Below are positions 1-49,618 of a stretch of 64,000 nucleotides of DNA, one piece after another. The stretch spans positions 1 through 64,000 of the forward strand of contig JAUIKF010000020.1 of the NCBI GenBank assembly GCA_030430575.1. Direction: 5' to 3'. Under the pieces are notes generated by a model that was given only the letters and a program-made list of their open reading frames with translations, was not told the origin of the DNA and did not search any database. Source of the DNA: Bacteroidia bacterium (GTDB lineage Bacteria; Bacteroidota; Bacteroidia; J057). Made by a program: the position numbers and the translations under genes. How positions within the stretch are numbered: the first letter of the stretch is position 1; each line of letters begins with the position of its first letter.

Positions 1-3000
1 GACATGGTCCCGCTGGATCGTCTGTTGTGAGGGTCAGCGTAACAGTGCCTGCGGCAATGTCATTCACACCTGGGGTGTAGATCGCGTTCAGGGCAGATGC
101 ATTGTTGAAGGTTCCGTCGCCACTGGTTGTCCAAGTGCTGGTAGAAGCACCGCCGCCAATCGAGCCATTCAACTGAACTGTTCCTCCTTCACAAATATCT
201 TGATCCGCGCCAGCGTCTGCTGTTGGGTCATCATAAATGGTCACGACCATTTGATCGCTAGCAGCCACACATGGGCCGGCTGGATCATTCGTGGTAATGG
301 TCAAAGTAACCGTACCTGCTGCGATGTCTGCTGCACCTGGGGTGTAGATCGCATTCGCGGCAGTCGCATCGTCGAACGTTCCGTCGCCAGATGTCGTCCA
401 AGTCAGGCTGCTTGCACCACCGCCAATATTGCCTGCCAACTGGACAGTTGAGCCTTCACAGATGTCTTGATCTGCACCAGCATCCGCTGTTGGATCATCG
501 CTGATGGTCACGACCATCTGATCACTAGCAGCCAGACATGGTCCCGCTGGATCGTCTGTTGTGAGGGTCAGCGTAACAGTGCCTGCGGCAATGTCATTCA
601 CACCTGGGGTGTAGATCGCATTCAGGGCAGATGCATTGTTGAAGGTTCCGTCGCCACTGGTTGTCCAAGTGCTGGTAGAAGCACCCCCACCAATCGAGCC
701 ATTCAACTGAACTGTTCCTCCTTCACATACCGTCTGGTCTGCTCCAGCATTCGCTTCAGGCTTATCATTAATTATTAGAATCAAATCATCCGAAACCGCA
801 GGACATGGACCCGCAGGATCAGCAGAAGTCAAGGTCAGGGTCACGGTTCCAGCAGCAATGTCACCTGCACCAGGCGTATAGATCGCAGCCAGTGAATTAG
901 CATTGTTAAAGGTTCCGTCTCCGCTGGTCGTCCAAGTACCTGTCGTAGCAGATCCTGTGACACTACCGCTCAAGAGTGCGGTTTCGTCTTCGCAGATCGT
1001 CTGGTCTGGGCCAGCTACTACAATAGGCTTCTTATTGATCGTAATCACCATGTCATCAGCTACTGCTGGACAAGGTCCGGCTGGATCGTCAGAGGTCAGA
1101 GTCAATGTGACAGTGCCACCAGCAATGTCAACTGGACCTGGTGTATAAATCGCAGCGAGTGAATTAGCATTGTTAAAGGTTCCATCTCCACTGGTCGTCC
1201 AGGTACCTGCTGTAGCACTACCTGTGATACTTCCACTGAGGGAAACAGTCTCACCTTCACAGATCGTCTGGTCAGCACCCGCATCAACTACAGGTTTAAG
1301 ATTGATCGTTACAACCATGTCATCAGATACCGCAGGACATGGACCTGCAGGATCATTGGTAGTCAGGGTAATGGTAACTGTGCCATTTGCAATATCATTC
1401 ACACCTGGCGTGTAGGAGGTGATGGCTGCATTTGCATTGGCAAATGTTCCGTCACCACTAGTGGTCCAAGTACTGCTACTCGCACCGCCACCGATATTTC
1501 CTAAGAGGGTCACCTGGTCACCTTCGCAGATCGTCTGGTCAGCACCAGCATCGGCAGTCGCTGCAGGATCAATGGTGATCACCATATCATCAGTCACAGC
1601 AGGACATGGGCCAGCAGGATCATCTGTAGTCAAGGTCAAGGTCACTGTGCCTATAAGGAGGTCAAATGGTCCGGGCGTATAAGTAGTGTTCAGGGCAAAT
1701 GGATTCGCAAATGTGCCATCTCCAGCCGTCGACCAAGTCGACGTTTGTGCACTGCCCCCTATGTTTCCGCCCAAAATCACGATGTCACCTGCACATATAG
1801 TCTGGTCAACACCCGCATCAGAAGTCGCTTCAGGATTGATGGTTACCACCATATCGTCAGCGGTCGACTGACAAGGACCTGCTGGGTCATTGGAAGTCAG
1901 GGTGAGTGAAACGGTACCGTTTGCAATGTCATTCGGTCCAGGCGTATAGATAGTCGCTAGCGCATTCGCATTCGCAAATGTTCCATCGCCACTGGTCGTC
2001 CATGAACCGCTGGTTGCACCACCGTTGACACTTCCTGTGAGGGAGACTGTCTCCGTCTGGCAGATCGTCTGATCCACTCCTGCATCGGCAGTAGCCAAAG
2101 GATTGATTGTAATGACCATGTCATCAGATACAGGCCCACATGGACCAAATGGGTCATTGGTCGTCAAGGTAAGGGTCACCGTACCATTAGCCCTGTCACT
2201 AGTACCTGGTAAGTAGAAGGTGTTGAGGGCATTAGGATTGATAAAGGTTCCATCGCCACTCGTCGTCCACATAGCACTACTAGCACCACCACCAAACTGG
2301 CCTGAGATGGTCACAAAGGCCTCATCTTCACAAATTGTCTGATCAACACCAGCATTCACAGTAGGTTCTGGGCTGATAAATATTTTCACATCATCAGAAG
2401 CCGCCACACAGGAACCAGCAGGATCATCTGTCGTCAAGGTCAGGGTAACTGAGCCACTTGACAGATCTACAGGACCTGGGGTGTAGGTCGTATTGAGTGA
2501 ATTAGCATTGGCAAAACTACCATCTCCACTGGTCGTCCAACTGGCACTGCTTGCGCCGCCACCGATCGTACCTGCAAGGACGATTGAGGTGCTCTCACAT
2601 ACACTCTGGTTAGGACCAGCATCTACCGTAGGCTGTGGAGAAATGGTCAAGACCATATCATCCGTAGCCGCAGGGCAGGATCCTGGAGGATCATTGGTAG
2701 TAATCGTAAGGGTTACACTTCCAACAGCAATGTCCAATGGACCTGGTACATAGAAGGTCAGTACCGCACTGCTATTTAGGAAGTATCCATCTCCGCTAGT
2801 TGTCCACATCTGGCTCGTGGCGCTGCCACCGACAGAACCGACTACCATCGCTTGATCACCCGCACATATGGTCTGATCAGCACCTGCATTTGCTGTAGGT
2901 CCTGGAATGATCACAACAGTCAGGTCATCACTGTCAGACGTACAAGGACCCGCTGGGTCGTCAGTCGTCAAGGTCAAGGTGACATTTCCAAGGAAGATGT

Positions 3001-6000
3001 CAAATGGACCTGGAGTATAAACCGCGTTAAGCGCATTTACATTATTGAATGAACCGTCACCACTTGTAGTCCAAGTGCCTGTGGTTGCACTGGTAATGCT
3101 TCCAGCAAGCTGAACTGTCTCAGAAGAGCAGATAAACTGGTTGTTTCCAGCATCTGCCATCGGATCGTCCGTGATGATCAGTTTCAAGGTATCACCTTCT
3201 GCCATACATGGGCCAGAAGGATCATTTGTTGTAAGAATCAATTCAACCATACCCGTAGCCACATCATTCGTGCCTGGAGTATAGAAGGTAGCGGCAGCAG
3301 TACTATTGTTAAAGGTACCATCGCCAGTTGTGGTCCAAGTCACACTGCTTGCGCCACCACCGAAGCTTCCTGTCAGGTTCGCTACTGATCCTTTACAGAT
3401 CGTCTGATCTGAACCTGCGCTTACAATAGCGGCTGGGTTGATATTGACCACCATATCATCTGATGCTGCTGCACAAGGGCCAGCAGGGTCATTAGTCGTA
3501 ATGGTCAGCGTAACGATACCATTTGCAAGGTCATTGGTACCTGGGGTATAAGTAGTTACGAGAGCAGATGCATTGGCAAATGTTCCGTCACCACTGGTCG
3601 TCCAAGTAATGCTGGTTGCGCCTCCACTCATGCTGCCTGTCAAAGAAACTACATCGCCTTCACAAATCGTCTGGTCTACCCCAGCGTTCGTTTCTGGCAA
3701 ATCATCGATGGTCAATACCATCACATCAACCTCTGCAGGACATGCGCCTGTTGGGTCATTGGTCGTGAGGGTCAGCACGACACTGCCATTGGCAATGTCA
3801 TTGACGCCTGGCGTATAGAAGGTAGCAGCAGCATTCGGATTGTTAAATGTGCCATCACCTGCCGTAGACCAAGTTGCGCTGCTCGCGCCTCCACCAAATG
3901 AACCCGTCAAGTTCACATTGTCACCTTCACAGATCGTCTGGTCAGGACCAGCATTGACGATTGCCTCTGGCAGGATGTTGACGATCATTTGATCAGTCGC
4001 ATCTGGACATGGGCCATTTCCGACAATGCCTGTCAAGGTAAGGGTTACTGTACCATTGCCCTTGTCATTAGGTCCTGGGGTATAAGTAGTGGCAAGAGCA
4101 GATGCGTTAGCAAATGTTCCGTCACCGCTAGTTGTCCACAAGCTAGTCGTTGCGCTACCACTAATGCTACCGGAAAGTGATACTACGTCAGTCTCACAGA
4201 TCGTCTGGTTCGCACCCGCATTCGCTGTTGCTTCAGGATCTATCGAGAGAACCATCGTGTCTTTTCCAATATCACAAGGACCTGGAGGGTCATTGGTGGT
4301 CAAGTATAGCGCTACAGAACCTGCCGCAATATCCAGTGGGCCAGGCGTATAGTTGGTGTTGAGGGCATTTGCATTGGCAAATGTTCCATCACCCGCTGTC
4401 GTCCAGGTTGCACTGCTGGCGCCTGCGCCAAAGCTACCGGTCAAGGCAGCTACATCTCCTTCGCAGATCGTCTGGTCAGTGCCAGCATCCGCTGAAGGCG
4501 AGGTGCCCAAGTTGATGACCATGTCATCACTGGCTGTAGGACAAGGTCCAGCAGGATCGTCAGTAGTGAGCGTAAGCGTCACGGTGCCATTTGCAAGGTC
4601 AGTAGCACCTGGCGTATAGATGGCATCGAGTTTTGTATTATCATCAAATGAACCGTCTCCACTGGTAGTCCAGGTCGCGCTGCTTGCACCACCGCTGATG
4701 CTACCGTTGAGCTGCACAGCCGTTACGCCACAGATCGTCTGGTCTACTCCAGCATTCACAGTCGCTTTATCATTGATCGTCACAATCATGTCATCAGAAA
4801 CGGCTGGACATGGTCCAGCAGGATCATCAGTAGTCAGGGTCAGGGTAACCGTACCTCCAATGATGTCATTAGGTCCAGGGGTATAGAAGGTGTTGAGTGC
4901 ATTTACATTGTTAAATGTGCCGTCACCATTGGTACTCCAAACAGAGCTTGTCGCACCACCACCTATGGTACCCGTCAAATTAACCTGATCACCTTCACAA
5001 ATCGTCTGGTCACTACCAGCATTTGCCGTAGGCTCATCATTAATCTGAATCACTACCTCATCAGAAACAGAAGGACAAGGCCCAGCTGGATCATTCGTGG
5101 TGAGGGTCAGCGTGACAGTTCCTGCGAGAATATCGCCAGGTCCTGGCGTATAAACTGTATTGAGCGCAGAGGCATTGGCAAATGTTCCGTCTCCGTTGGT
5201 CGTCCAAGTCGAACTTGTTGCTCCACCACCAATAGAACCAGTAATCAATACCTGATCACCTTCACAGATCGTCTGGTCTTGACCACCGTTCACTGTAGCG
5301 ATTGGGTTAATCGTCAACAGCATCGTGTCATCAGACGCTGTACATGGACCAGCAGGATCATCAGTAGTCAATACCAGCTTCACGGTTCCTGTGCTAATAT
5401 CTGTAGGTCCTGGGGTGTAGAAGGTAATGAGTGCGTTTACATTGTTAAATGTTCCGTCTCCTGTCGTACTCCAAGTCGCGCTACTAGCACCACCTCCGAT
5501 ACTTCCTGTCAGGTTAGCATTGTCACCTTCACAGATGGTCTGGTCTACACCAGCATCAGCAGAGGTACCACTACCGATAGTCAAGACAAGCAAGTCAGAC
5601 TCAGCAGGACATGGACCTACTGGGTCATTGGTTGTCAGGGTAATGTTTACACTTCCATTCGCGATGTCAATCGGTCCTGGAGTGTACGTTGTGACAATAG
5701 AATTGGCATTGCCAAAGGAACCATCACCACTGGTAGTCCAAGTAGCACTACTTGCACCACCGCCAAAGCTTCCTGTCAGGTTCACAGTACCACCTGCACA
5801 AGTGAACTGGTCAGCACCTGCATTCACTGTTGCTTCGTCATTGATCGTCACGATCATTACGTCAGTCGCAGCAGGACATGGGCCAGCTGGATCATTCGTG
5901 GTAAGGGTAAGCGTTACCGTTCCATTGTTCAAGTCATTGGCACCTGGCGTATAGAAAGTATTGAGTGCAGAAGCATTGTTAAATACTCCATCACCACTGG

Positions 6001-9000
6001 TAGTCCATGTAGCACTGCTTGCGCCACCGCTGATGGAACCATTCATGGTCACAATATCTCCTTCACAAATCGTCTGATCGATGCCTGCATTCGTTTCAGG
6101 TAGGTCATTGATGGTCACTACCATTTGGTCGGAAGCAGCCACACATGGACCTGCTGGATTATCAGTAGTGAGTGTGAGCGTGACAGTGCCAGCTGCAATA
6201 TCATTGGCACCTGGTGTGTAAATCGCATTGAGTGCAGAAGCATTGTTAAATGTACCGTCCCCTGAAGTAGTCCATGTAGCGGAGCTTGCACCACCGCCGA
6301 TGGTTCCGTTGAGCGTTGCCGTTGTGCCTTCACAAATGCTTTGGTCTGAACCCGCATTCACCTCTGGCTGGTCATTGATCGTAACCACCATCTGATCACT
6401 CTCTGCCACACATGGGCCAGCTGGATCGTCAGTTGTCAAGGCCAAGGTCACTGTGCCTGCTGCAATGTCATTGCTGCCTGGGGTGTAGATCGCATTTAGG
6501 GCTGAAGCATTGCTAAACGTTCCGTCACCTGAGGTTGACCATGTTGCGCTGCTTGCACCAGCACCGATTGTGCCATTGAGGCTTACAGTTTCAGTTTCAC
6601 AAATTGTCTGGTCAGAACCTGCATTCACTTCTGGCTGGTCATTAATTGTCACTACCATCTGATCAGTCGCCAAATTACAGGGTCCTGGAGGGTCGTCAGT
6701 TGTGAGTGTAAGTGTGACAGTGCCTGCCGCTATATCATTGGTGCCTGGCGTATAAATCGCCGTGGCCGAATTTGCATTATTAAAGGTGCCATCGCCATTT
6801 GTTGTCCAAGTCAGGCTTGCAGCACCACCACCTATCGTTCCATTCAATTGTACTGTCTCAGTCTCACAGATCGTCTGGTCAGCACCTGCGTCTGCTGATG
6901 CATCATCAGAAATGGTGATTACCATTTGATCGCTTTCAGCCACACATGGACCTGCTGGGTTATCAGTAGTGAGTGTGAGTGTGAGAGTGCCCGCTGCAAT
7001 GTCAGCAGCACCTGGGGTGTAAATCGCAGTCAGTGAGTTCACGTTGTTAAACGTTCCGTCACCACTGGTAGACCAAGTAGCACTTGAAGCACCACCGCCA
7101 ATGGTACCATTCAACTGAGCCGTTGTGCCTTCACAAATACTTTGGTCTGAGCCTGCATTCACTTCAGGCTGGTCATTGATGGTAACTACCATTTGATCGC
7201 TCTCAGCCACACATGGACCCGCTGGGTCATCAGTAGTAAGAGTCAGGGTAACCGTTCCTGCTGCAATATCATTGGTTCCTGGGGTGTAGATCGCATTCAG
7301 GGCAGAAGCATTGTTAAATGTGCCATCACCACTGGTAGACCAAGTAGCTGAACTTGCGCCACCGCCAATAGAACCATTCAACTGAACTGTTTCAGTTTCA
7401 CAGATTGTCTGGTCAGCATTTGCATTAACTTCTGGTTGGTCATTAATCGTCACGACCATTTGATCACTCTCAGCCACACAGGGACCTGCTGGGTCATCAG
7501 TTGTGAGGGTCAAAGTAACCGTTCCTGCTGCAATATCATTGGTTCCTGGGGTGTAGATCGCATTCAGGGCAGAAGCATTGTTAAATGTTCCGTCACCGGA
7601 TGTAGACCAAGTAGCTGAGCTTGCACCGCCACCGATTGAACCGTTCAACTGAACTGTTTCAGTTTCACAAATCGTCTGGTCAGCATTCGCATTTACTTCT
7701 GGCTGGTCATTAATCGTTACGACCATTTGATCACTTTCAGCCACACATGGACCAGCTGGGTCATCAGTTGTAAGGGTCAAAGTAACCGTTCCTGCTGCAA
7801 TATCATTGGTTCCTGGGGTGTAGATCGCATTCAGGGCAGAAACATTGTTAAAGGTGCCGTCGCCACTGGTTGACCAAGTAGCACTGCTTGCACCGCCACC
7901 AATGGAACCATTCAACTGAGCCGTTGTGCCTTCACAAATGCTTTGGTCAGCACCTGCATTTACTTCTGGTTGGTCATTGATAGTCACAACCATCTGATCA
8001 CTTTCAGCCACACATGGACCCGCTGGGTCGTCAGTTGTGAGCGTGAGTGTGACAGTGCCAGCAACAATGTCATTGGTACCAGGCGTATAGATCGCATTAA
8101 GGAGAGAAGCATTGTTAAAGGTTCCGTCACCGGCAGTGCTCCAAGTAGCGCTGCTAGCACCACCACCAATCGAACCGTTCAATTGGACTGTTTCAGTCTC
8201 ACAGATCGTTTGGTCGGCATTCGCATCTACCTCAGGCTGATCATTGATGGTCACAACCATCTGGTCAGATGCAGCATTACATGGCCCCGCTGGGTCATTT
8301 GTTGTCAGGGTCAATGTGACACTGCCACTGGCAATATCATTTGTTCCTGGTGTATAAACTGCATCTGTTTTTGTATTGTCATCGAACGTGCCGTCGCCGC
8401 TTGTAGTCCAAGTCAGGCTTGAAGCACCGCCACCTATCGTTCCATTCAACTGAACGGTCTCAGTCTCACAGATCGTCTGGTCAGCACCGGCGTTTGCTGT
8501 CGCATCATCGGTTATCGTAATCACCATCTGATCACTTTCGGCCACACATGGACCCGCTGGATCGTCAGTTGTAAGGGTAAGGGTTACTGTACCTGCAATC
8601 AGGTCATTGGCACCTGGGGTGTAAATCGCGTTGAGGGCAGAAGCATTGTTGAATGTTCCGTCTCCGGAAGTCGTCCAAGTCGCACTGCTTGCACCGCCAC
8701 CAATGGAACCATTCAACTGAGCTGTTGTGCCTTCACAAATGCTTTGGTCAGCACCTGCATTTACTTCTGGCTGATCATTAATCGTAACCACCATCTGGTT
8801 ACTCTCAGCTACACATGGACCCGCTGGGTCGTCAGTTGTGAGCGTGAGCGTCACTGTACCAGCTGCAATATCATTCGTACCTGGGGTGTAGATCGCATTC
8901 AAGGCAGAAGCATTGTTAAAGGTGCCATCACCACTGGTAGACCAAGTAGCTGAGCTTGCACCGCCACCGATTGAACCATTCAACTGAACCGCCTCAGTTT

Positions 9001-12000
9001 CACAAATCGTCTGGTCAGCATTCGCATCTACTTCTGGCTGGTCATTGATGGTCACAACCATTTGATCAGAAGCCGCATTACATGGTCCTGCGGGGTCATT
9101 TGTTGTCAGGGTTAACGTGACACTGCCACTGGCAATATCATTTGAGCCTGGGGTATAAACTGCGTTGGTTTTTGTATTGTCATCAAAGGTGCCGTCGCCG
9201 CTTGTTGTCCAAGTCAGGCTTGAAGCACCACCACCAATTGTACCATTCAACTGAACCGTCTCCGTTTCACAGATCGTCTGGTCAGCACCTGCGTCCGCTG
9301 TCGCATCATCGGTAATCGTAATAACCATTTGATCGCTTTCAGCCACACATGGACCTGCGGGGTCATCAGTTGTGAGGGTTAAGGTAACTGTTCCTGCAAT
9401 CAGGTCATTGGCACCTGGAGTATAGATCGCGTTTAAGGCATTGGCGTTGTTAAATGTTCCGTCTCCGGAAGTCGTCCAAGTTGCACTGCTTGCTCCGCCA
9501 CCAATTGAACCATTCAACTGAACTGTTTCAGTTTCACAGATGGTCTGGTCAGCGTTTGCATTTACTTCTGGTTGATCATTGATGGTCACGACCATCTGAT
9601 CACTCTCAGCCACACATGGACCCGCTGGGTCATCAGTCGTGAGCGTAAGTGTTACGGTACCTGAAGCAATGTCAGCAGTACCTGGGGTGTAAATCGCATT
9701 CAAGAGAGAAGCATTGTTAAATGTTCCGTCTCCGGAAGTCGTCCAAGTTGCACTGCTTGCTCCGCCACCAATTGAACCATTCAACTGAACTGTTTCAGTT
9801 TCACAAATCGTCTGGTCAGCATTCGCATCCACTTCTGGTTGATCATTGATGGTAACCACCATCTGATCAGAAGCCGCATTACATGGTCCTGCGGGGTCAT
9901 TTGTTGTCAGGGTCAATGTGACACTACCACTGGCAATATCACTTGTTCCTGGGGTATAAACTGCGTCTGTTTTTGTATTGTCATCGAAAGTGCCGTCGCC
10001 GCTTGTTGTCCAAGTCAGGCTTGAAGCACCGCCACCTATCGTTCCATTCAACTGAACGGTCTCAGTCTCACAGATCGTCTGGTCAGCACCGGCGTTTGCT
10101 GTCGCATCATCGGTTATCGTAATCACCATCTGATCACTTTCGGCCACACATGGACCCGCTGGATCGTCAGTTGTAAGGGTAAGGGTTACTGTACCTGCAA
10201 TCAGGTCATTGGCACCTGGGGTGTAAATCGCGTTGAGGGCAGAAGCATTGTTGAATGTTCCGTCTCCGGAAGTCGTCCAAGTCGCACTGCTTGCACCGCC
10301 ACCAATGGAACCATTCAACTGAGCTGTTGTGCCTTCACAAATGCTTTGGTCAGCACCTGCATTTACTTCTGGCTGATCATTAATCGTAACCACCATCTGG
10401 TTACTCTCAGCTACACATGGACCCGCTGGGTCGTCAGTTGTGAGCGTGAGCGTCACTGTACCAGCTGCAATATCATTCGTACCTGGGGTGTAGATCGCAT
10501 TCAAGGCAGAAGCATTGTTAAAGGTGCCATCACCACTGGTAGACCAAGTAGCTGAGCTTGCACCGCCACCGATTGAACCATTCAACTGAACCGCCTCAGT
10601 TTCACAAATCGTCTGGTCAGCATTCGCATCTACTTCTGGCTGGTCATTGATGGTCACAACCATTTGATCAGAAGCCGCATTACATGGTCCTGCGGGGTCA
10701 TTTGTTGTCAGGGTTAACGTGACACTGCCACTGGCAATATCATTTGAGCCTGGGGTATAAACTGCGTTGGTTTTTGTATTGTCATCAAAGGTGCCGTCGC
10801 CGCTTGTAGTCCAAGTCAGGCTTGAAGCACCACCACCTATGTTACCATTCAACTGAACGGTCTCAGTTTCACAAATCGTTTGGTCGGCACCTGCATCTGC
10901 TGTCGCATCATCGGTTATCGTAATAACCATTTGATCACTTTCAGCTACACACGGTCCTGCTGGATCGTCAGTAGTGAGTGTGAGCGTAACCGTTCCTGCA
11001 ATCAAGTCATTGGCACCTGGGGTGTAAATGGCATTCAGCGCAGAAGCATTGTTAAAGGTTCCGTCGCCACTGGTCGTCCAAGTAGCACTGCTTGCACCGC
11101 CACCAATTGAGCCATTCAATTGAGCCGTTGTGCCTTCACAAATGCTTTGGTCAGCACCTGCATTTACTTCTGGCTGATCATTGATTGTCACAACCATTTG
11201 ATCACTTTCAGCCACACATGGACCCGCTGGGTCGTCAGTTGTGAGCGTGAGTGTGACAGTGCCAGCAACAATGTCATTGGTACCAGGCGTATAGATCGCA
11301 TTAAGGAGAGAAGCATTGTTAAAGGTTCCGTCACCGGCAGTGCTCCAAGTAGCGCTGCTAGCACCACCACCAATAGAACCGTTCAACTGAACTGTTTCAG
11401 TTTCACAGATCGTCTGGTCAGCATTCGCATCTACTTCTGGCTGGTCATTGATGGTCACAACCATTTGATCAGAAGCCGCATTACATGGGCCTGCTGGGTC
11501 ATTTGTTGTCAGGGTTAACGTGACACTGCCACTGGCAATATCATTTGAGCCTGGGGTATAAACTGCGTTGGTTTTTGTATTGTCATCAAAGGTGCCGTCG
11601 CCGCTTGTTGTCCAAGTCAGGCTTGAAGCACCACCACCTATGTTACCATTCAACTGAACCGTCTCAGTCTCACAGATCGTCTGGTCAGCACCTGCGTCCG
11701 CTGTTGCATCATCGGTTACTGTAATAACCATTTGATCGCTCTCAGCCACACAAGGACCTGCTGGATCATCAGTTGTAAGCGTTAAGGTAACTGTGCCTGC
11801 AATCAGGTCATTGGCACCAGGAGTATAAATCGCGTTGAGGGCAGAAGCGTTGTTGAAAGTTCCGTCACCACTGGTCGTCCAAGTAGCACTGCTTGCACCA
11901 CCACCAATGGAACCATTCAATTGAGCTGTTGTGCCTTCGCAAATGCTTTGGTCTGAGCCTGCATTCACTTCTGGCTGATCATTAATCGTAACCACCATCT

Positions 12001-12406
12001 GGTCACTTTCAGCTACACATGGTCCCGCTGGGTCGTCAGTTGTGAGCGTGAGCGTCACTGTACCAGCTGCAATATCATTCGTACCTGGGGTGTAGATCGC
12101 ATTCAAGGCAGAAGCATTGTTAAAGGTGCCGTCGCCACTAGTTGACCAAGTAGCTGAGCTTGCACCGCCACCAATCGAACCGTTCAATTGAACCGCCTCA
12201 GTTTCACAGATCGTCTGGTCAGCATTTGCATCTACCTCTGGTTGATCATTGATCGTAACCACCATCTGATCAGAAGCCGCATTACATGGGCCTGCTGGGT
12301 CATTTGTTGTCAGGGTCAATGTGACACTGCCACTGGCAATATCATTTGTTCCTGGGGTATAAACTGCGTCTGTTTTGGTATTGTCATCGAAAGTGCCGTC
12401 GCCGCT
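1..12406 (-). repeat. 46.5-copy 267-bp coding tandem array with an 801-bp higher-order period
   Basis: Anchors spaced by 267 bp cover the whole stretch without a frame-changing indel. From about 8000 to 12406 three unit subtypes alternate strictly. One subtype carries DDNTKTDAVYTPG (anchors 8346, 9147, 9948, 10749, 11550, 12351). A second has ATCAGGTCATTGGCACC on the plus strand (8613, 9414, 10215, 11016, 11817). The third fills the remaining slots. This makes an 801-bp period. Positions about 8406-9205 and 10008-10807 look identical by eye over roughly 800 bp. Units nearer the left edge have diverged more, although 1-180 and 535-714 are nearly identical copies two units apart. Confidence 0.9.
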
Positions 12407-12421
12407 AGGAAGAATGCCCCT
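1..12421 (-). CDS. Giant tandem-repeat surface/adhesin-like protein, partial (PKD/Ig-like units)
   Basis: One minus-strand frame stays open from 12421 to the left edge, giving about 4,135 visible residues and no C-terminus. It consists of about 46.5 copies of an 89-residue unit. The YTPG motif recurs 47 times between plus-strand positions 69 and 12351 at 267-bp steps, with one step of 270 and one of 264. Each unit reads roughly DPAGPC, D(Q/D)MVVTI, DQTICEG, VQLNGSIGG, TWTTSGDGTF, YTPG, ND-A-GTVTLTLTT. This resembles PKD-like/Ig-like beta-sandwich domains of Bacteroidota gliding-motility or T9SS-exported giant proteins. Two Cys per unit (PC and ICE) could form disulfides. No start codon in this frame belongs to a signal peptide; a TGA lies at 12424-12422. 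A surface role is inferred from family resemblance; the expected C-terminal export domain lies outside the window. Confidence 0.85.
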
Positions 12422-12588
12422 TCATCAATAAAATTAACATGTGTTTCTGGAGGGGGTTTATCCACCTGTACTTTTGAGGATTCAGAAGTCGAACAGCCAT
12501 AACATAAAAGGAAGGCAAATAAAATGGCCAATGCCCATCTGGCTTTTATTAGGTTATGCAAGGATAATGGAAATAAAAAATTGTTCAT
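12316..12588 (-). pseudogene. Lipoprotein/signal-peptide stub joined out of frame to the repeat array
   Basis: The ATG at 12588 opens a frame with a basic segment (NLIKARW), a hydrophobic core (ALAILFAFLL) and CYGC, resembling a lipoprotein or Sec signal peptide. About 28 polar residues follow (STSESSKVQVDKPPPETHV...), up to EGAFF. From 12406 downward the same frame runs through the first repeat unit in the wrong phase and stops at 12316. Only about 60 residues are therefore meaningful. An upstream in-frame ATG at 12609 (MKLISIT) is an alternative start. It may be the real N-terminus of the giant protein cut off by a deletion, or the beginning of an unrelated lipoprotein placed here by an assembly join in the repeats. 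Confidence 0.6.
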
Positions 12589-13774: not shown

Positions 13775-14257
13775 TTAATAGCCTCCTTTTATCTCTGCAA
13801 AATAAGAAGAACGTTTTTTGTTTTTGACGCGGAGTTCACCCAAAATTTCATACACCCTGCTCTTCTTCAAAGAAATATTAAAATGATCTTCTAATAATGA
13901 CTCTACTAAAGGTTCCGTCCAATTAGGTTCTTTATACCCATACTTAGTAGGATGATCATTCAGGAGGATCATCCGCAGCTTTTGTTTTTGTTCAGCATCC
14001 AGTTTTTGCTGCTTAGGTCTTCTAATGGGCGTTAGCAATTTGGTAAATCCTCCTTCAAGGTATAAGTCTACCCATGTCCGAAGAGTCTTGATATTACAAT
14101 CAACAATGGTACATACTTGCCCCATTTGCCGACCTTCCCACAAATACTTAATGGCTTCAAGCCGGCGGCGCATATGGTCTGCCTTTTGTTGATCCTGTAA
14201 CGTGTGCAAGAGGTCCCAATCTTTGGGCATGTTGAGGAGTCGTTTGCGTCTAGTCAT
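13775..14257 (-). CDS. Winged helix-turn-helix protein, IS630-type transposase N-terminal half
   Basis: The 160-aa product from the ATG at 14257 (MTRRKRLLNMPKDWDLL) matches the layout of the DNA-binding ORF of IS630-family elements. A helical segment (RRRLEAIKYLWEGRQMGQV) and a helix-turn-helix (C-I-V-D-C-N-I-K-T-LRTWVDLYLEGG) come first. A basic RRPKQQKLDAEQKQKLR linker and a second winged-helix segment (TEPLVESLLEDHFNISLKKSRVYEIL) follow. The longer frame up to 14389 runs through hairpin-rich DNA and looks non-coding. No DDE catalytic ORF follows, so this is either an orphan regulator-like ORF or a transposon remnant. Family assignment is from motif pattern only. Confidence 0.6.
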   Translation of the reverse strand: MTRRKRLLNMPKDWDLLHTLQDQQKADHMRRRLEAIKYLWEGRQMGQVCTIVDCNIKTLRTWVDLYLEGGFTKLLTPIRRPKQQKLDAEQKQKLRMILLNDHPTKYGYKEPNWTEPLVESLLEDHFNISLKKSRVYEILGELRVKNKKRSSYFAEIKGGY

Positions 14258-14450
14258 AGTCCAGTGTGGTTTAAAAATGGCTAAAAGAAGCCATTGGATT
14301 AAGCAAATGATTTTCAAGTCATCCGCGGTATCCCCTTTCAAAAAGGGTGTACCTTCGGCGCGACCGAAAGGTAGGACATGACTAAACAAGCTGCTTATCT
14401 TTGGTGATAAGCTGCAGGATTTTGTCGATAAGTGTAAAAAAGTTGGAGAT

Positions 14451-20083: not shown

Positions 20084-20118
20084 TTCAGGGTTCAGGGTTC
20101 AGGGTTCAGGGTTCAGGG
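20084..20118. repeat. Five tandem TTCAGGG heptamers
   Basis: Five perfect copies of TTCAGGG run head to tail just downstream of a minus-strand hypothetical gene. A 7-bp hairpin (CAACCTA/TAGGTTG, 20032-20057) lies nearby. A slippage-prone microsatellite is the simplest reading. Confidence 0.85.
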
Positions 20119-20121
20119 TAA

Positions 20122-20757: not shown

Positions 20758-21201
20758 TACGCTATTCTTTAAGAAGCAGGTTATTTATCTCTTCGTCTTA
20801 TTCACCTTACTTTAATCCCCTGCAAATACATAGCCATGATGGTGTGTGTCTTTCCTTCCCCTATTTGCGCCCCACACCAATTTCTCGTAATTTTATTTAA
20901 AAGTAATTGAGGAATCGGAGCAAATGGCAGAGGAACCGCGTGCGGCTGTCGATTGAGTGAAAAAAATCTCCCAACTCCTCCGTTATTTCACCGTAGCTTA
21001 GAAACTAATGTTGAATGGCTAATTTTGAATGATTGAATGTTGAATTTTGAATAAGATTAATCGTCAACCATTTATTCATTTTATCCCTTCGATAAACGTT
21101 CGGCAGAGCTCACGTCGAAGCCTCAGGACAAGCATTTATTCATATAATCATTCTCCATTCTATCATTCACTCATTCTATCATCCAATCATTATCTTCATA
21201 C
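20758..21201. other. Intergenic region with AT-rich and CTTCGA-type repeats
   Basis: A 440-bp gap without a supported gene. It has several AT-rich words built on TTGAATG/ATTTTGAAT (21010-21060) and a segment with CCCTTCGA, GAGCTCACGTCGAAG and CCTCAGG (21086-21125). The latter resembles the CCTTCGAC/GCTCAGG repeats seen at 22121-22151 and 49686-49740. Promoters for both flanking genes must lie here, but I could not fix one. Confidence 0.5.
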
Positions 21202-23204: not shown

Positions 23205-23963
23205 ATGGACATCTCCCAATACCTCCAACGCATACGATATGAAGGCTCGCTATCTCCTACCCTACCAACGCTCCGGGAATTACACAAAAGTCACTTACTC
23301 ACTGTGCCATTTGAAAACTTGGATATTCACTATAGAACACCCATAAAACTAGAAGTCCCACGTGTATTTGAGAAGGTTGTGGCCAATCATCGAGGCGGAT
23401 TTTGCTATGAGCTAAATGGCTTATTTTATGAATTGCTGCAAGCATTGGGGTTTGAAGTGAGACGGATCGCAGCGCAGGTGTATGATGAGAAAAAGGGCTA
23501 TGGACCGCCTTTTGACCACTTAGCGATCTTGACGACGATTGATGGGGTCGATTATTTGACAGATGTGGGGTTTGGAGATTTTACCCTAGAGCCCTTAGTT
23601 TTCACCCAAAACATCCTTCAATCTGACCCTAAGGGGGATTTTATGATCGATCGCACTGAGGATGGTTACTTTCGGGTAAATAAAATCATCAATGGTAAAA
23701 GCGTTCCAAAATACATTTTTGAAGATATTCCCCGTGCTTACCACGAATACCGCAACATGTGCCATTACCACCAGACACATCCTGCCTCCCATTTTACCCA
23801 AAAGCCGTTTATCTCCCTCGCGACTGAGACGGGTCGTGTATCTCTGATCGGCAAGAAACTGAAAGTGACGAAAGGGGAGGACATCACTGAGCAAAAACTC
23901 CCTGATGAAGCAGCATTCAGGGAGGCATTATGGAATTATTTCAAGGTGAATATTCCTACTTAA
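23205..23963 (+). CDS. nat: Arylamine N-acetyltransferase
   Basis: The 252-aa product from the ATG at 23205 (MDISQYLQRI) transfers acetyl from acetyl-CoA to arylamines or hydrazines. The catalytic triad is visible as Cys67 in RGGFCYELN, His105 in PPFDHLAIL and Asp120 in LTDVGFGD. VPFENLDIH near the N-terminus is also typical. The in-frame GTG nine codons upstream falls in a palindromic repeat and is not used in this call. The length is slightly short for the family but includes all three domains. Confidence 0.92.
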   Translation: MDISQYLQRIRYEGSLSPTLPTLRELHKSHLLTVPFENLDIHYRTPIKLEVPRVFEKVVANHRGGFCYELNGLFYELLQALGFEVRRIAAQVYDEKKGYGPPFDHLAILTTIDGVDYLTDVGFGDFTLEPLVFTQNILQSDPKGDFMIDRTEDGYFRVNKIINGKSVPKYIFEDIPRAYHEYRNMCHYHQTHPASHFTQKPFISLATETGRVSLIGKKLKVTKGEDITEQKLPDEAAFREALWNYFKVNIPT

Positions 23964-24008
23964 TTAACCATTTACCCTTAACCATTAACCATTAACCATT
24001 AAATTCTC
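23964..24008. repeat. TTAACCA-type tandem low-complexity repeat
   Basis: The gap between two plus-strand genes contains three consecutive AACCATT-like units preceded by degenerate copies. Similar CATTAACC words occur before the gene end at 26949. It is probably a slippage-derived spacer. Confidence 0.6.
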
Positions 24009-24371: not shown

Positions 24372-25273
24372 AGTTCGGCACCGACGTAATAGTCGCCTAC
24401 ACCTTTCCCTTCTTTGCTACGCTCATTCTGATTGAGTACCTATTGGCGCGGCATGTATTTAAGCTAAAAGAGTCGCTTGCGGGGATTGGCGTAGCAATAG
24501 GGGCATCGGTAATTGCCGTTTTTTCAAAGACTTTTGCCTTAGCCGTCTTTATCTTCTTTTTCGAGGTGTTTAGGGAAATAAGGCTGGAAATTCTTGGCTA
24601 CGAATCCTTGGGATGGGCGTGGTATATCTGGCTGCTCGCTATTGTCGGAGATGATTTTAACTTTTATTGGCATCATCGTCTGAGCCATACCATCAGACTG
24701 TTGTGGGCTGCCCATGTGCCGCACCATTCCAGCAAATCCTTCAATCTGATCGTCGCCATTAGAAACGGCTGGTTTCCCACGCTTTATAAGCCAATATTTT
24801 GGCTGTGGATGCCCATTTTGGGCTTTGATCCAGCCATGATTGCCTTCTGCCTGATCTTTAACGGCACCTACCAATTTTGCCTCCACACCCAACTGGTCCC
24901 TTCCCTGGGCTGGGTGGCGATCCTCTTCAACACCCCACAAGTCCACCAAGTGCACCACGCCAGCAATATCCCCTACCTCGACAAAAACCACGGCGGTGTT
25001 TTCATCATTTGGGACAAACTTTTTGGTACGTACAAAACGCTTGAGCCACACAATCCGCCCACTTTTGGCATTATCAATGACCCACATTCCTATAATCCTT
25101 TTGTGCTCAATACCCATGAATTCGCCAATATCTGGCGAGATGTGAAGAAAGTCTCTTCTCTGAAGGACAAGTTGAAATACATTTTCTATCCGCCTGGCTG
25201 GAGCCATGACCATTCTTCCAAGACGGTGAAGGAACTCCAGCGTAAGGTAGAATTTGGGAATATTATTGAGTAA
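24368..25273 (+). CDS. Fatty acid hydroxylase / sterol desaturase family membrane di-iron enzyme
   Basis: The 301-aa integral membrane protein carries the His clusters of this superfamily: HHRLSH (102-107), HVPHH (116-120), an additional His173, HQVHH (193-197) and His208. These ligate a di-iron centre for C-H hydroxylation or desaturation of a lipid. Several hydrophobic helices precede and separate the boxes. The substrate is unknown; Bacteroidota members can act on fatty acyl, sphingolipid or carotenoid chains. It overlaps the preceding hypothetical gene by 4 bp. Confidence 0.9.
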   Translation: MKFGTDVIVAYTFPFFATLILIEYLLARHVFKLKESLAGIGVAIGASVIAVFSKTFALAVFIFFFEVFREIRLEILGYESLGWAWYIWLLAIVGDDFNFYWHHRLSHTIRLLWAAHVPHHSSKSFNLIVAIRNGWFPTLYKPIFWLWMPILGFDPAMIAFCLIFNGTYQFCLHTQLVPSLGWVAILFNTPQVHQVHHASNIPYLDKNHGGVFIIWDKLFGTYKTLEPHNPPTFGIINDPHSYNPFVLNTHEFANIWRDVKKVSSLKDKLKYIFYPPGWSHDHSSKTVKELQRKVEFGNIIE

Positions 25274-25307
25274 ATTAGGCTACAATATCCACCCTAATTC
25301 CCATATT

Positions 25308-26873
25308 ATGTTGAATTCTTCGACGATCTCAAGCACTTTTCTTTTCCTTATTATTTTTTCCTTTTACTCCTATTCCCATGCTCAGCTTCATCGAATACAC
25401 CCAGCCTATGATATCCTTGGAGGGCCATCTATACATACAGAGCCTCCAATTGATCTCGCATCGCCTGAACTATTAGTGGCCTCAGTTCATTGGTCGGATT
25501 TATTTACCCCGAGCATTGTTCCAAGGGATTCGTCTTTCCACTTTTATAATCAAGTCAACCAACGAACAAAGACCATTGAGTATTTCTGGGATGCAGATTC
25601 TTCTTACTATATCGCTGGATCACAATTCCTGTATACCTATTATGGTGATACAACTGTTTATATTTTTCAGCAGTGGGACATAGGCAATCAAAAGTGGAAA
25701 GACCTGAGTCGCATTTCTGAAAAGTTTGATGGAAATGGGCGTTCCTTGTATAAATTGACAGAATACTGGGTTGATTCACTTGGCAATTGGCGCAACCAGT
25801 ACCAAACGACCCACTGGAGAGATCAGATGGGGAGAGACACCCTTATTCTCGACCAAGCTTGGGGCCCCCGAGGCAATTCCTGGGTAGATGAAAATAGAAT
25901 CCGCATATCATGGGGCCCATCCTCCCCGCTATATCCCAATAAATTTCTCTCCTATATTTGGGATACTTATGACACAACTATTTCTCAATGGCAGTCTTAT
26001 CGCCAATGGTTCAATGTTTTTGATACCGATGGGACTCCCCTTTCGTATTCAGGCTATTCTTACTCCAGACTCCCCAACCCTCCCAGTATAGGTCGAATAA
26101 CGTGGTCATATAATGCCCATAAACAGCCTGTTGAGCGCCTTGAGCAAGTCTTCGATTACGGGACTTTGACGTGGGCTAATAGAAAGCTTCGGACATTTTC
26201 TTACAAAAGTAATGATCTACATGACTTAGATAGTATCTTGGTTAGGTGGTGGAGAGATGATGCCACATTTATAGGCTGGGTGAATGAGTCAAGAGCCATT
26301 TATACTCAGCTGAGCACCGACTCTTTACGGATAGACCATGCTTCTGCTTCATGGCAAAATGGGAACACGTGGCATGAAGGAGTTAGAATCCTAATCAAGG
26401 GCAATTTGGCCTTAGGCATATTTCACAATGTTTATTCTGAAAACTGGTCGGGAAATCAACTGGTCTCTTCATCTAAATCAGCCTTTCAATATACCCCTGA
26501 AGGTCATCTTTCATCGCTTATTTCGCACAAACTGGACACTGAATCTTTGGTCTGGATTATGAATAGAAGGGAGGTCTATTATTACCGCCCTTTAAATGTA
26601 TCAATCGATGAGGCTATATCTTTCAGCTTTGCTCTTTATCCTAATCCTACCGACGACTTCCTGACAATCGAACTTGACCTCAAAACTCCTCAAGAAGTAG
26701 CTATACAGCTCGTGGATATTCAAGGGCAAATATTGAAACAACGCCCGCCAATTCTATTCCATACAGGTAATCATCGATTGGCTATAGAAGTAGCGGATCT
26801 TCCTGAAGGTGTGTATCTGGTTATGGTCCAAAAAGGTGCTGAATCTCTATCTAAAAGATGGATAAAAAAATAG
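25308..26873 (+). CDS. Secreted protein with T9SS type A C-terminal sorting domain
   Basis: The 521-aa product from the ATG at 25308 (MLNSSTISSTFLFLIIFSFY) has a signal peptide cut near SHAQ. A long beta-rich body follows, with repeated Y/W-rich motifs (QWDIGNQKWKDLSRISEKFD, W-DSLGNWRNQYQT), reminiscent of the YD-like repeat bodies of Bacteroidota surface proteins. The final 80 residues form a type A sorting domain (ALYPNPTDDFLTIEL ... GVYLVMVQKGAESLSKRWIKK). It should therefore cross the outer membrane through T9SS and be released or anchored at the surface. The function of the body is unknown. Confidence 0.85.
   Translation: MLNSSTISSTFLFLIIFSFYSYSHAQLHRIHPAYDILGGPSIHTEPPIDLASPELLVASVHWSDLFTPSIVPRDSSFHFYNQVNQRTKTIEYFWDADSSYYIAGSQFLYTYYGDTTVYIFQQWDIGNQKWKDLSRISEKFDGNGRSLYKLTEYWVDSLGNWRNQYQTTHWRDQMGRDTLILDQAWGPRGNSWVDENRIRISWGPSSPLYPNKFLSYIWDTYDTTISQWQSYRQWFNVFDTDGTPLSYSGYSYSRLPNPPSIGRITWSYNAHKQPVERLEQVFDYGTLTWANRKLRTFSYKSNDLHDLDSILVRWWRDDATFIGWVNESRAIYTQLSTDSLRIDHASASWQNGNTWHEGVRILIKGNLALGIFHNVYSENWSGNQLVSSSKSAFQYTPEGHLSSLISHKLDTESLVWIMNRREVYYYRPLNVSIDEAISFSFALYPNPTDDFLTIELDLKTPQEVAIQLVDIQGQILKQRPPILFHTGNHRLAIEVADLPEGVYLVMVQKGAESLSKRWIKK

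Positions 26874-46874: not shown

Positions 46875-49618
<2,744 letters not shown>

Follow-up and report, generated by a model that had tools for sequence, protein, structure and literature searches.

The window analysed here (the whole 64,000-nt stretch, from a Bacteroidia genome) opens inside a very long repetitive reading frame, which raises the question of what protein it belongs to and how such a protein would be held on the cell surface. Giant adhesins of Bacteroidota are assumed to reach the surface via a T9SS C-terminal domain. A sequence-only reading of the array had proposed a length-variable adhesin exported in this way, whose C-terminus should lie to the left of position 1.

The array occupies one minus-strand frame (Table 1) and carries 47 anchors of the form [YF][TVL]PG, confirming the proposed 46.5 or so coding units with 47 YTPG anchors in phase; with 4,136 stop-free codons in 2..12409, the visible protein does exceed 4,100 residues. 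Full units of this contig (C29) are 89 aa long except for one of 88 aa and one of 90 aa, which match the single −3 and +3 length changes described earlier, both of which keep the frame. Because TRF finds a 267-bp tandem period, and because W, GDG, YxPG and exactly two cysteines are constant across the 57 full units pooled from two contigs (see below), a chance origin of the anchor periodicity is excluded. The two cysteines of each full unit possibly form a disulfide. In a profile scan of the kind that the sequence-only reading had suggested, PKD_4 (PF18911) matched the array at 291 bits against a curated cut-off of 27. A three-unit model predicts a string of beta-sandwich beads (pLDDT 94.9, pTM 0.76).

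Table 1. Features of the repeat array and its two edges, in window coordinates
Feature	Position	Strand	Remarks
Stop-free frame, PKD_4/Ig-like repeat array	2..12409	-	4,136 codons; PF18911 E 1.9e-88; runs past contig end onto G000:C66
Contig-edge 127-mer	1..127		exact copy at G000:C66:339106-339232; base 128 differs; marks join to C66
Units 44-46, DPTADAGADQDICEG type	2..763	-	class common to C66 units; inside collapsed 534-bp two-unit loop zone
Units 20-43, diverged zone	764..7171	-	mean DNA identity between units ~60-62%
Units 1-19, homogenised zone	7172..12244	-	higher-order period 3 and 6 units (801/1,602 bp)
Half unit, 55 aa	12245..12409	-	N-terminal side cut at junction
5' junction	12406..12412		array meets unrelated sequence mid-unit, out of frame
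Lipoprotein-like start MNNFLFPLS...LLCYGCSTSES...	12316..12588	-	runs into array out of frame
IS630-type transposase fragment	13775..14389	-	helix-turn-helix part only; near junction

Position 1 is the true end of contig C29 (G000:C29:1) and not an edge cut by the window. In the source assembly (8.16 Mb, 127 contigs) the first 127 nt of C29 recur on a second contig, C66, while the terminal 127 nt of C66 have a second copy 534 bp further inside that contig. Since both overlaps are of exactly 127 nt, the left end of C29 and the right end of C66 meet in a collapsed two-unit loop; as to the assembly method, we infer a k=127 de Bruijn assembly broken at this repeat. A search of the own genome showed that C66 ends on the right in a further 14 full units, oriented as in C29. 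Joined at the shared 127-mer, the two parts give 27,447 nt, a length divisible by three, with 9,149 codons free of stops and 58 units. This number is a minimum, as each extra pass through the collapsed loop would add two units. Beyond the units, C66 supplies SdrD_B repeats, the C-terminal region and the stop codon. A congener (G001) has only 7 units against at least 58 here, in agreement with the proposal that the adhesin varies in length.

Two zones of the array are homogenised, namely units 1-19 (period 3/6 units) and the C66 units together with units 44-46 of C29 (period 2/4). An exact 800-bp repeat at an offset of 1,602 bp demonstrates that the array was recently duplicated internally, and it probably grew by recent tandem duplication of blocks of 3-6 and 2-4 units, with its frame held by purifying selection. 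The sequence-only reading had left preservation of the frame to either selection or continual gene conversion. Comparing units with one another gives an uncorrected pN/pS of 0.22, 0.41 and 0.21 in the three zones, and the neighbouring units 18 and 19 encode the same protein sequence with only 88.8% identity in DNA. Conversion alone would not give the latter pattern, which argues for purifying selection on the protein as what keeps the frame.

At the other end the array breaks off (Table 1). The array frame has no in-frame start at 12409 and a TGA lies just upstream, as would be expected if the gene were a silent, recently truncated copy in which a real deletion joined the lipoprotein-like start to the array in the wrong frame. 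The half unit on the junction side is a unique variant rather than a collapsed repeat, and the IS630 fragment lies close by. Searches of the assembly gave no convincing copy of the congener N-terminus or separate N-terminal piece elsewhere, and the own genome gave no convincing second copy of the junction flank. Compared with the congener, synteny of this flank is kept on the NUDIX-pyrE side and lost on the array side. Against truncation, the assembler demonstrably broke on the other end of the array, making a false join plausible here too, and the frame is otherwise intact across all 9,149 codons. We regard a real truncation and a false join as about equally likely, and put the silent copy itself slightly short of an even chance; it would be compatible with the role proposed below for the intact protein. 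The lipoprotein-like start was also considered as a counterpart of the congener adhesin's N-terminus and rejected, the similarity not being significant against shuffles (p 0.2-0.5).

From N to C, the joined protein runs from the PKD units through about 28 SdrD_B domains (PF17210; 28 stretches on the C66 part, 3,111.7 bits against a cut-off of 29.7) into a beta-rich region ending ...NYFRRSHVPK before a TAA stop. The congener's 5,251-codon open frame, in which the 5' part is present, is ordered as a lipoprotein-like start, DUF7948, a weak DUF11 match, SdrD_B, the 7 units, SdrD_B again and the same tail. A LuxR-type response regulator precedes this congener gene (L045:11314-11985), and dedicated regulation is possible. 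As far as the stalk is concerned, the earlier proposal of a giant surface filament or adhesin is supported, here as a fibre of Ig/PKD beads. Fibrillar adhesins as a class (PMC9210967) likewise have a long repeat stalk, although the adhesive N-terminal end is absent from this assembly. Sdr-family MSCRAMM adhesins share the SdrD_B stalk (here of about 28 domains, with an SdrD structure match at E 3e-43) but belong to another phylum, while here a PKD array is added and no sortase signal was seen. By itself, the array would be a large member of an already known kind.

The C-terminus is where the protein departs from expectation. The leftward search suggested by the sequence-only reading did find a stop and a terminal module on C66, yet neither a sorting nor a gliding-motility domain. 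Models of T9SS types A, B and C, including Por_Secre_tail (PF18962/TIGR04183; the type A signal) and CHU_C (type B/SprB-like), matched neither the C-terminus of the giant nor 17 other proteins carrying the module. The last 240 aa are instead X-dockerin-like. Their AF2 model (pLDDT 92.5, pTM 0.88) has cellulosomal X-dockerins as all of its top nine Foldseek matches in the PDB (E 1e-6 to 1e-5), and in VIA-align eight X-dockerin entries score Z 9.3-10.1 whereas the next best reaches 5.2. The tail sequence matches PDB dockerins at E 4e-4, and 14 of the 18 module members match the dockerin family PF00404, the giant itself falling below cut-off. The confident model predicts the tail to be an X-dockerin dyad, an X-module beta-domain with a dockerin fold after it. 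The whole X-module plus dockerin arrangement is shared with the type II X-dockerins of CipA/ScaA (PDB 2b59, 3kcp, 4u3s), at 11-16% identity over the dyad by Foldseek. Those modules sit in cellulosomes, whereas this tail terminates a giant adhesin, in a bacterium with T9SS, and has only a candidate cohesin partner.

The module is not peculiar to this locus. At E<=1e-10 it occurs in 36 of 295 sampled genomes of the class, spread over many Bacteroidia families and often in several copies per genome (L101-L126), and Pfam and NCBIfam hold no model for it. In nearly all sampled loci it stands at the protein end, in most cases no more than 30 residues before the stop, and its own end, ...(H/Q)(V/I/L)P, is conserved in nearly all of them as well. 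Presence of T9SS was tried as a discriminator and discarded, as 45 of 46 genomes have T9SS with or without the module. Elsewhere in the own genome, tandem paralogues (G000:C28:60347-89340) comprise a 2,222-codon frame lacking the tail module and, immediately after it, one of 7,443 codons that has the module; their beginnings are similar, and each contains one related PKD unit. TPR histidine kinases flank this pair (L032:1657-3798, L033:16441-18570), and here too dedicated regulation is possible. A distant genome of the class (G027; contigs C20, C40, C52 and C56) gives at least 86 PKD-unit matches spread over several frames, the longest of 5,886 codons; these are probably independent giant arrays.

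Beside the module genes of the close family lies a second conserved element. In each of the 12 family loci, which come from four genomes only, the module gene has a small homologous secreted gene beside it; this gene follows the module gene in ten loci and precedes it in two. The giant's own locus has a pair of them, and the closer one lies about 1.1 kb downstream of the giant. Por_Secre_tail, the T9SS type A signal, is present in all 13 copies. When the partner profile was run over 712 kb of DNA, it matched only beside module genes, including one weak match beside a module gene of a distant family. Among the distant families, about 30 loci were inspected, and in 15 of them an ORF that looks secreted starts no more than 195 bp downstream; about half showed no such neighbour. 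Nine of ten such ORFs that were scanned have a T9SS type A or B signal, one of these nine just below cut-off, although the ten were picked by eye and the fraction is not a rate.

Several signs suggest what these neighbours may be. Two of the ten distant ORFs match Cohesin (PF00963) over nearly the full length of the domain model, below cut-off; a profile of the distant-neighbour family has cohesins as its top three PDB matches (E 0.27-0.51); and hhalign places the close partners against cohesins at E 0.012 and probability 3.6%, compared with 0.81 for a control. Pfam Cohesin matched none of the 13 family partners, and over the own genome it gave two marginal matches only and none in the congener. 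Weak as each sign is, taken together they make a cohesin-like N-domain of the partner plausible; at the giant's locus this N-domain belongs to the partner at C66:321800-322987.

We lean, by a little over an even chance, towards a giant fibrillar adhesin that an X-dockerin/cohesin-like pair anchors without a covalent bond. The array would form the stalk of a secreted protein that, from its missing N-terminus, would comprise 58 or more PKD_4/Ig beads, then some 28 SdrD_B domains and finally a beta-domain plus dockerin-like dyad ending SHVPK. This tail would dock non-covalently to the small protein encoded next door, and the partner, with its own T9SS type A signal, would hold the fibre on the cell surface in place of a C-terminal domain (CTD) on the giant. 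In Ruminococcus flavefaciens the X-dockerin/cohesin joint bears 600-750 pN (PMC4266597), a strength that would suit a fibre under load. If the neighbouring T9SS-anchored protein is the cohesin for this tail, a high-force joint of cellulosome type would be in use outside cellulosomes. More tentatively, many T9SS-bearing Bacteroidota may anchor giant fibres by such a pair, with a neighbouring gene supplying the T9SS-anchored cohesin-like socket; in the 36 genomes, as here, the module proteins end in the X-dockerin-like fold. It is the terminal module with its paired neighbour that sets this protein apart. No paper on such a pair was found in the literature searched, and the pairing of the genes makes docking directly testable.

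In the strongest competing reading, the tail would be a T9SS sorting signal of a new type, with the neighbour as its cognate shuttle or as unrelated cargo; type B CTDs, too, come with an adjacent partner gene, in their case PorP/SprF (PMC12618676). The position of the module at the protein end and its conserved last residues would fit such a signal, as would its length, about that of type B CTDs (150-235 aa; PMC12618676), and the giant has no other CTD. However, the tail fold matches X-dockerins and not the Ig-like type A CTD, and the neighbours are themselves T9SS substrates, unlike the outer-membrane barrels of PorP/SprF shuttles. We consider a sorting signal unlikely, while ranking it as the first alternative to the docking pair.

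Less probable still, at roughly one chance in eight, is a protein like GhpA, the grappling-hook protein of Aureispira used for catching prey (ixotrophy); these hooks are T9SS-secreted and heptameric (PMC11205867). GhpA (Aureispira sp. CCB-QB1; PDB 9flp, 9fly) is likewise a giant with Ig/PKD-like bead repeats, and it is the only PDB match of the unit profile at E<=1 (E 3.1e-12). The base of GhpA is also the top structural match of the three-unit model (Z 14.1, followed by titin at 11.2); phmmer with a single protein of three units returned nothing from the PDB. Cadherins ranked high in Foldseek but with a TMq below that of GhpA, and were read as generic beads. The GhpA match itself falls on generic bead repeats, whereas the SdrD_B tract matches SdrD structures and not GhpA, and the tail profile does not have GhpA among its PDB matches at E<=1. 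What the match establishes is a common type of repeat; that the protein is a hook does not follow from it.

A classical SprB-like filament, serving gliding or adhesion and carrying a CTD of type A or B, is very improbable. Like SprB and the type B T9SS adhesins, this is a giant repetitive Bacteroidota surface protein with a partner gene beside it, and T9SS type A substrates are abundant in its genome, but the true C-terminus on C66 is without a CTD (CHU_C included), which largely refutes this reading, and PorP/SprF had no match among the flanking ORFs scanned, the neighbour being a small type A substrate instead.

Other features of the window lie outside the array. The ORF 25254-26873 ends in a T9SS type A sorting domain (26634-26858). 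Tandem repeats of 7 bp occur at 20084-20119 and 23963-24002 (TTCAGGG x5.1 and ATTAACC x5.7), and AT-rich short tandem repeats with similar words (ATTCAAAATTC type) at 21005-21191 and 47006-47052.
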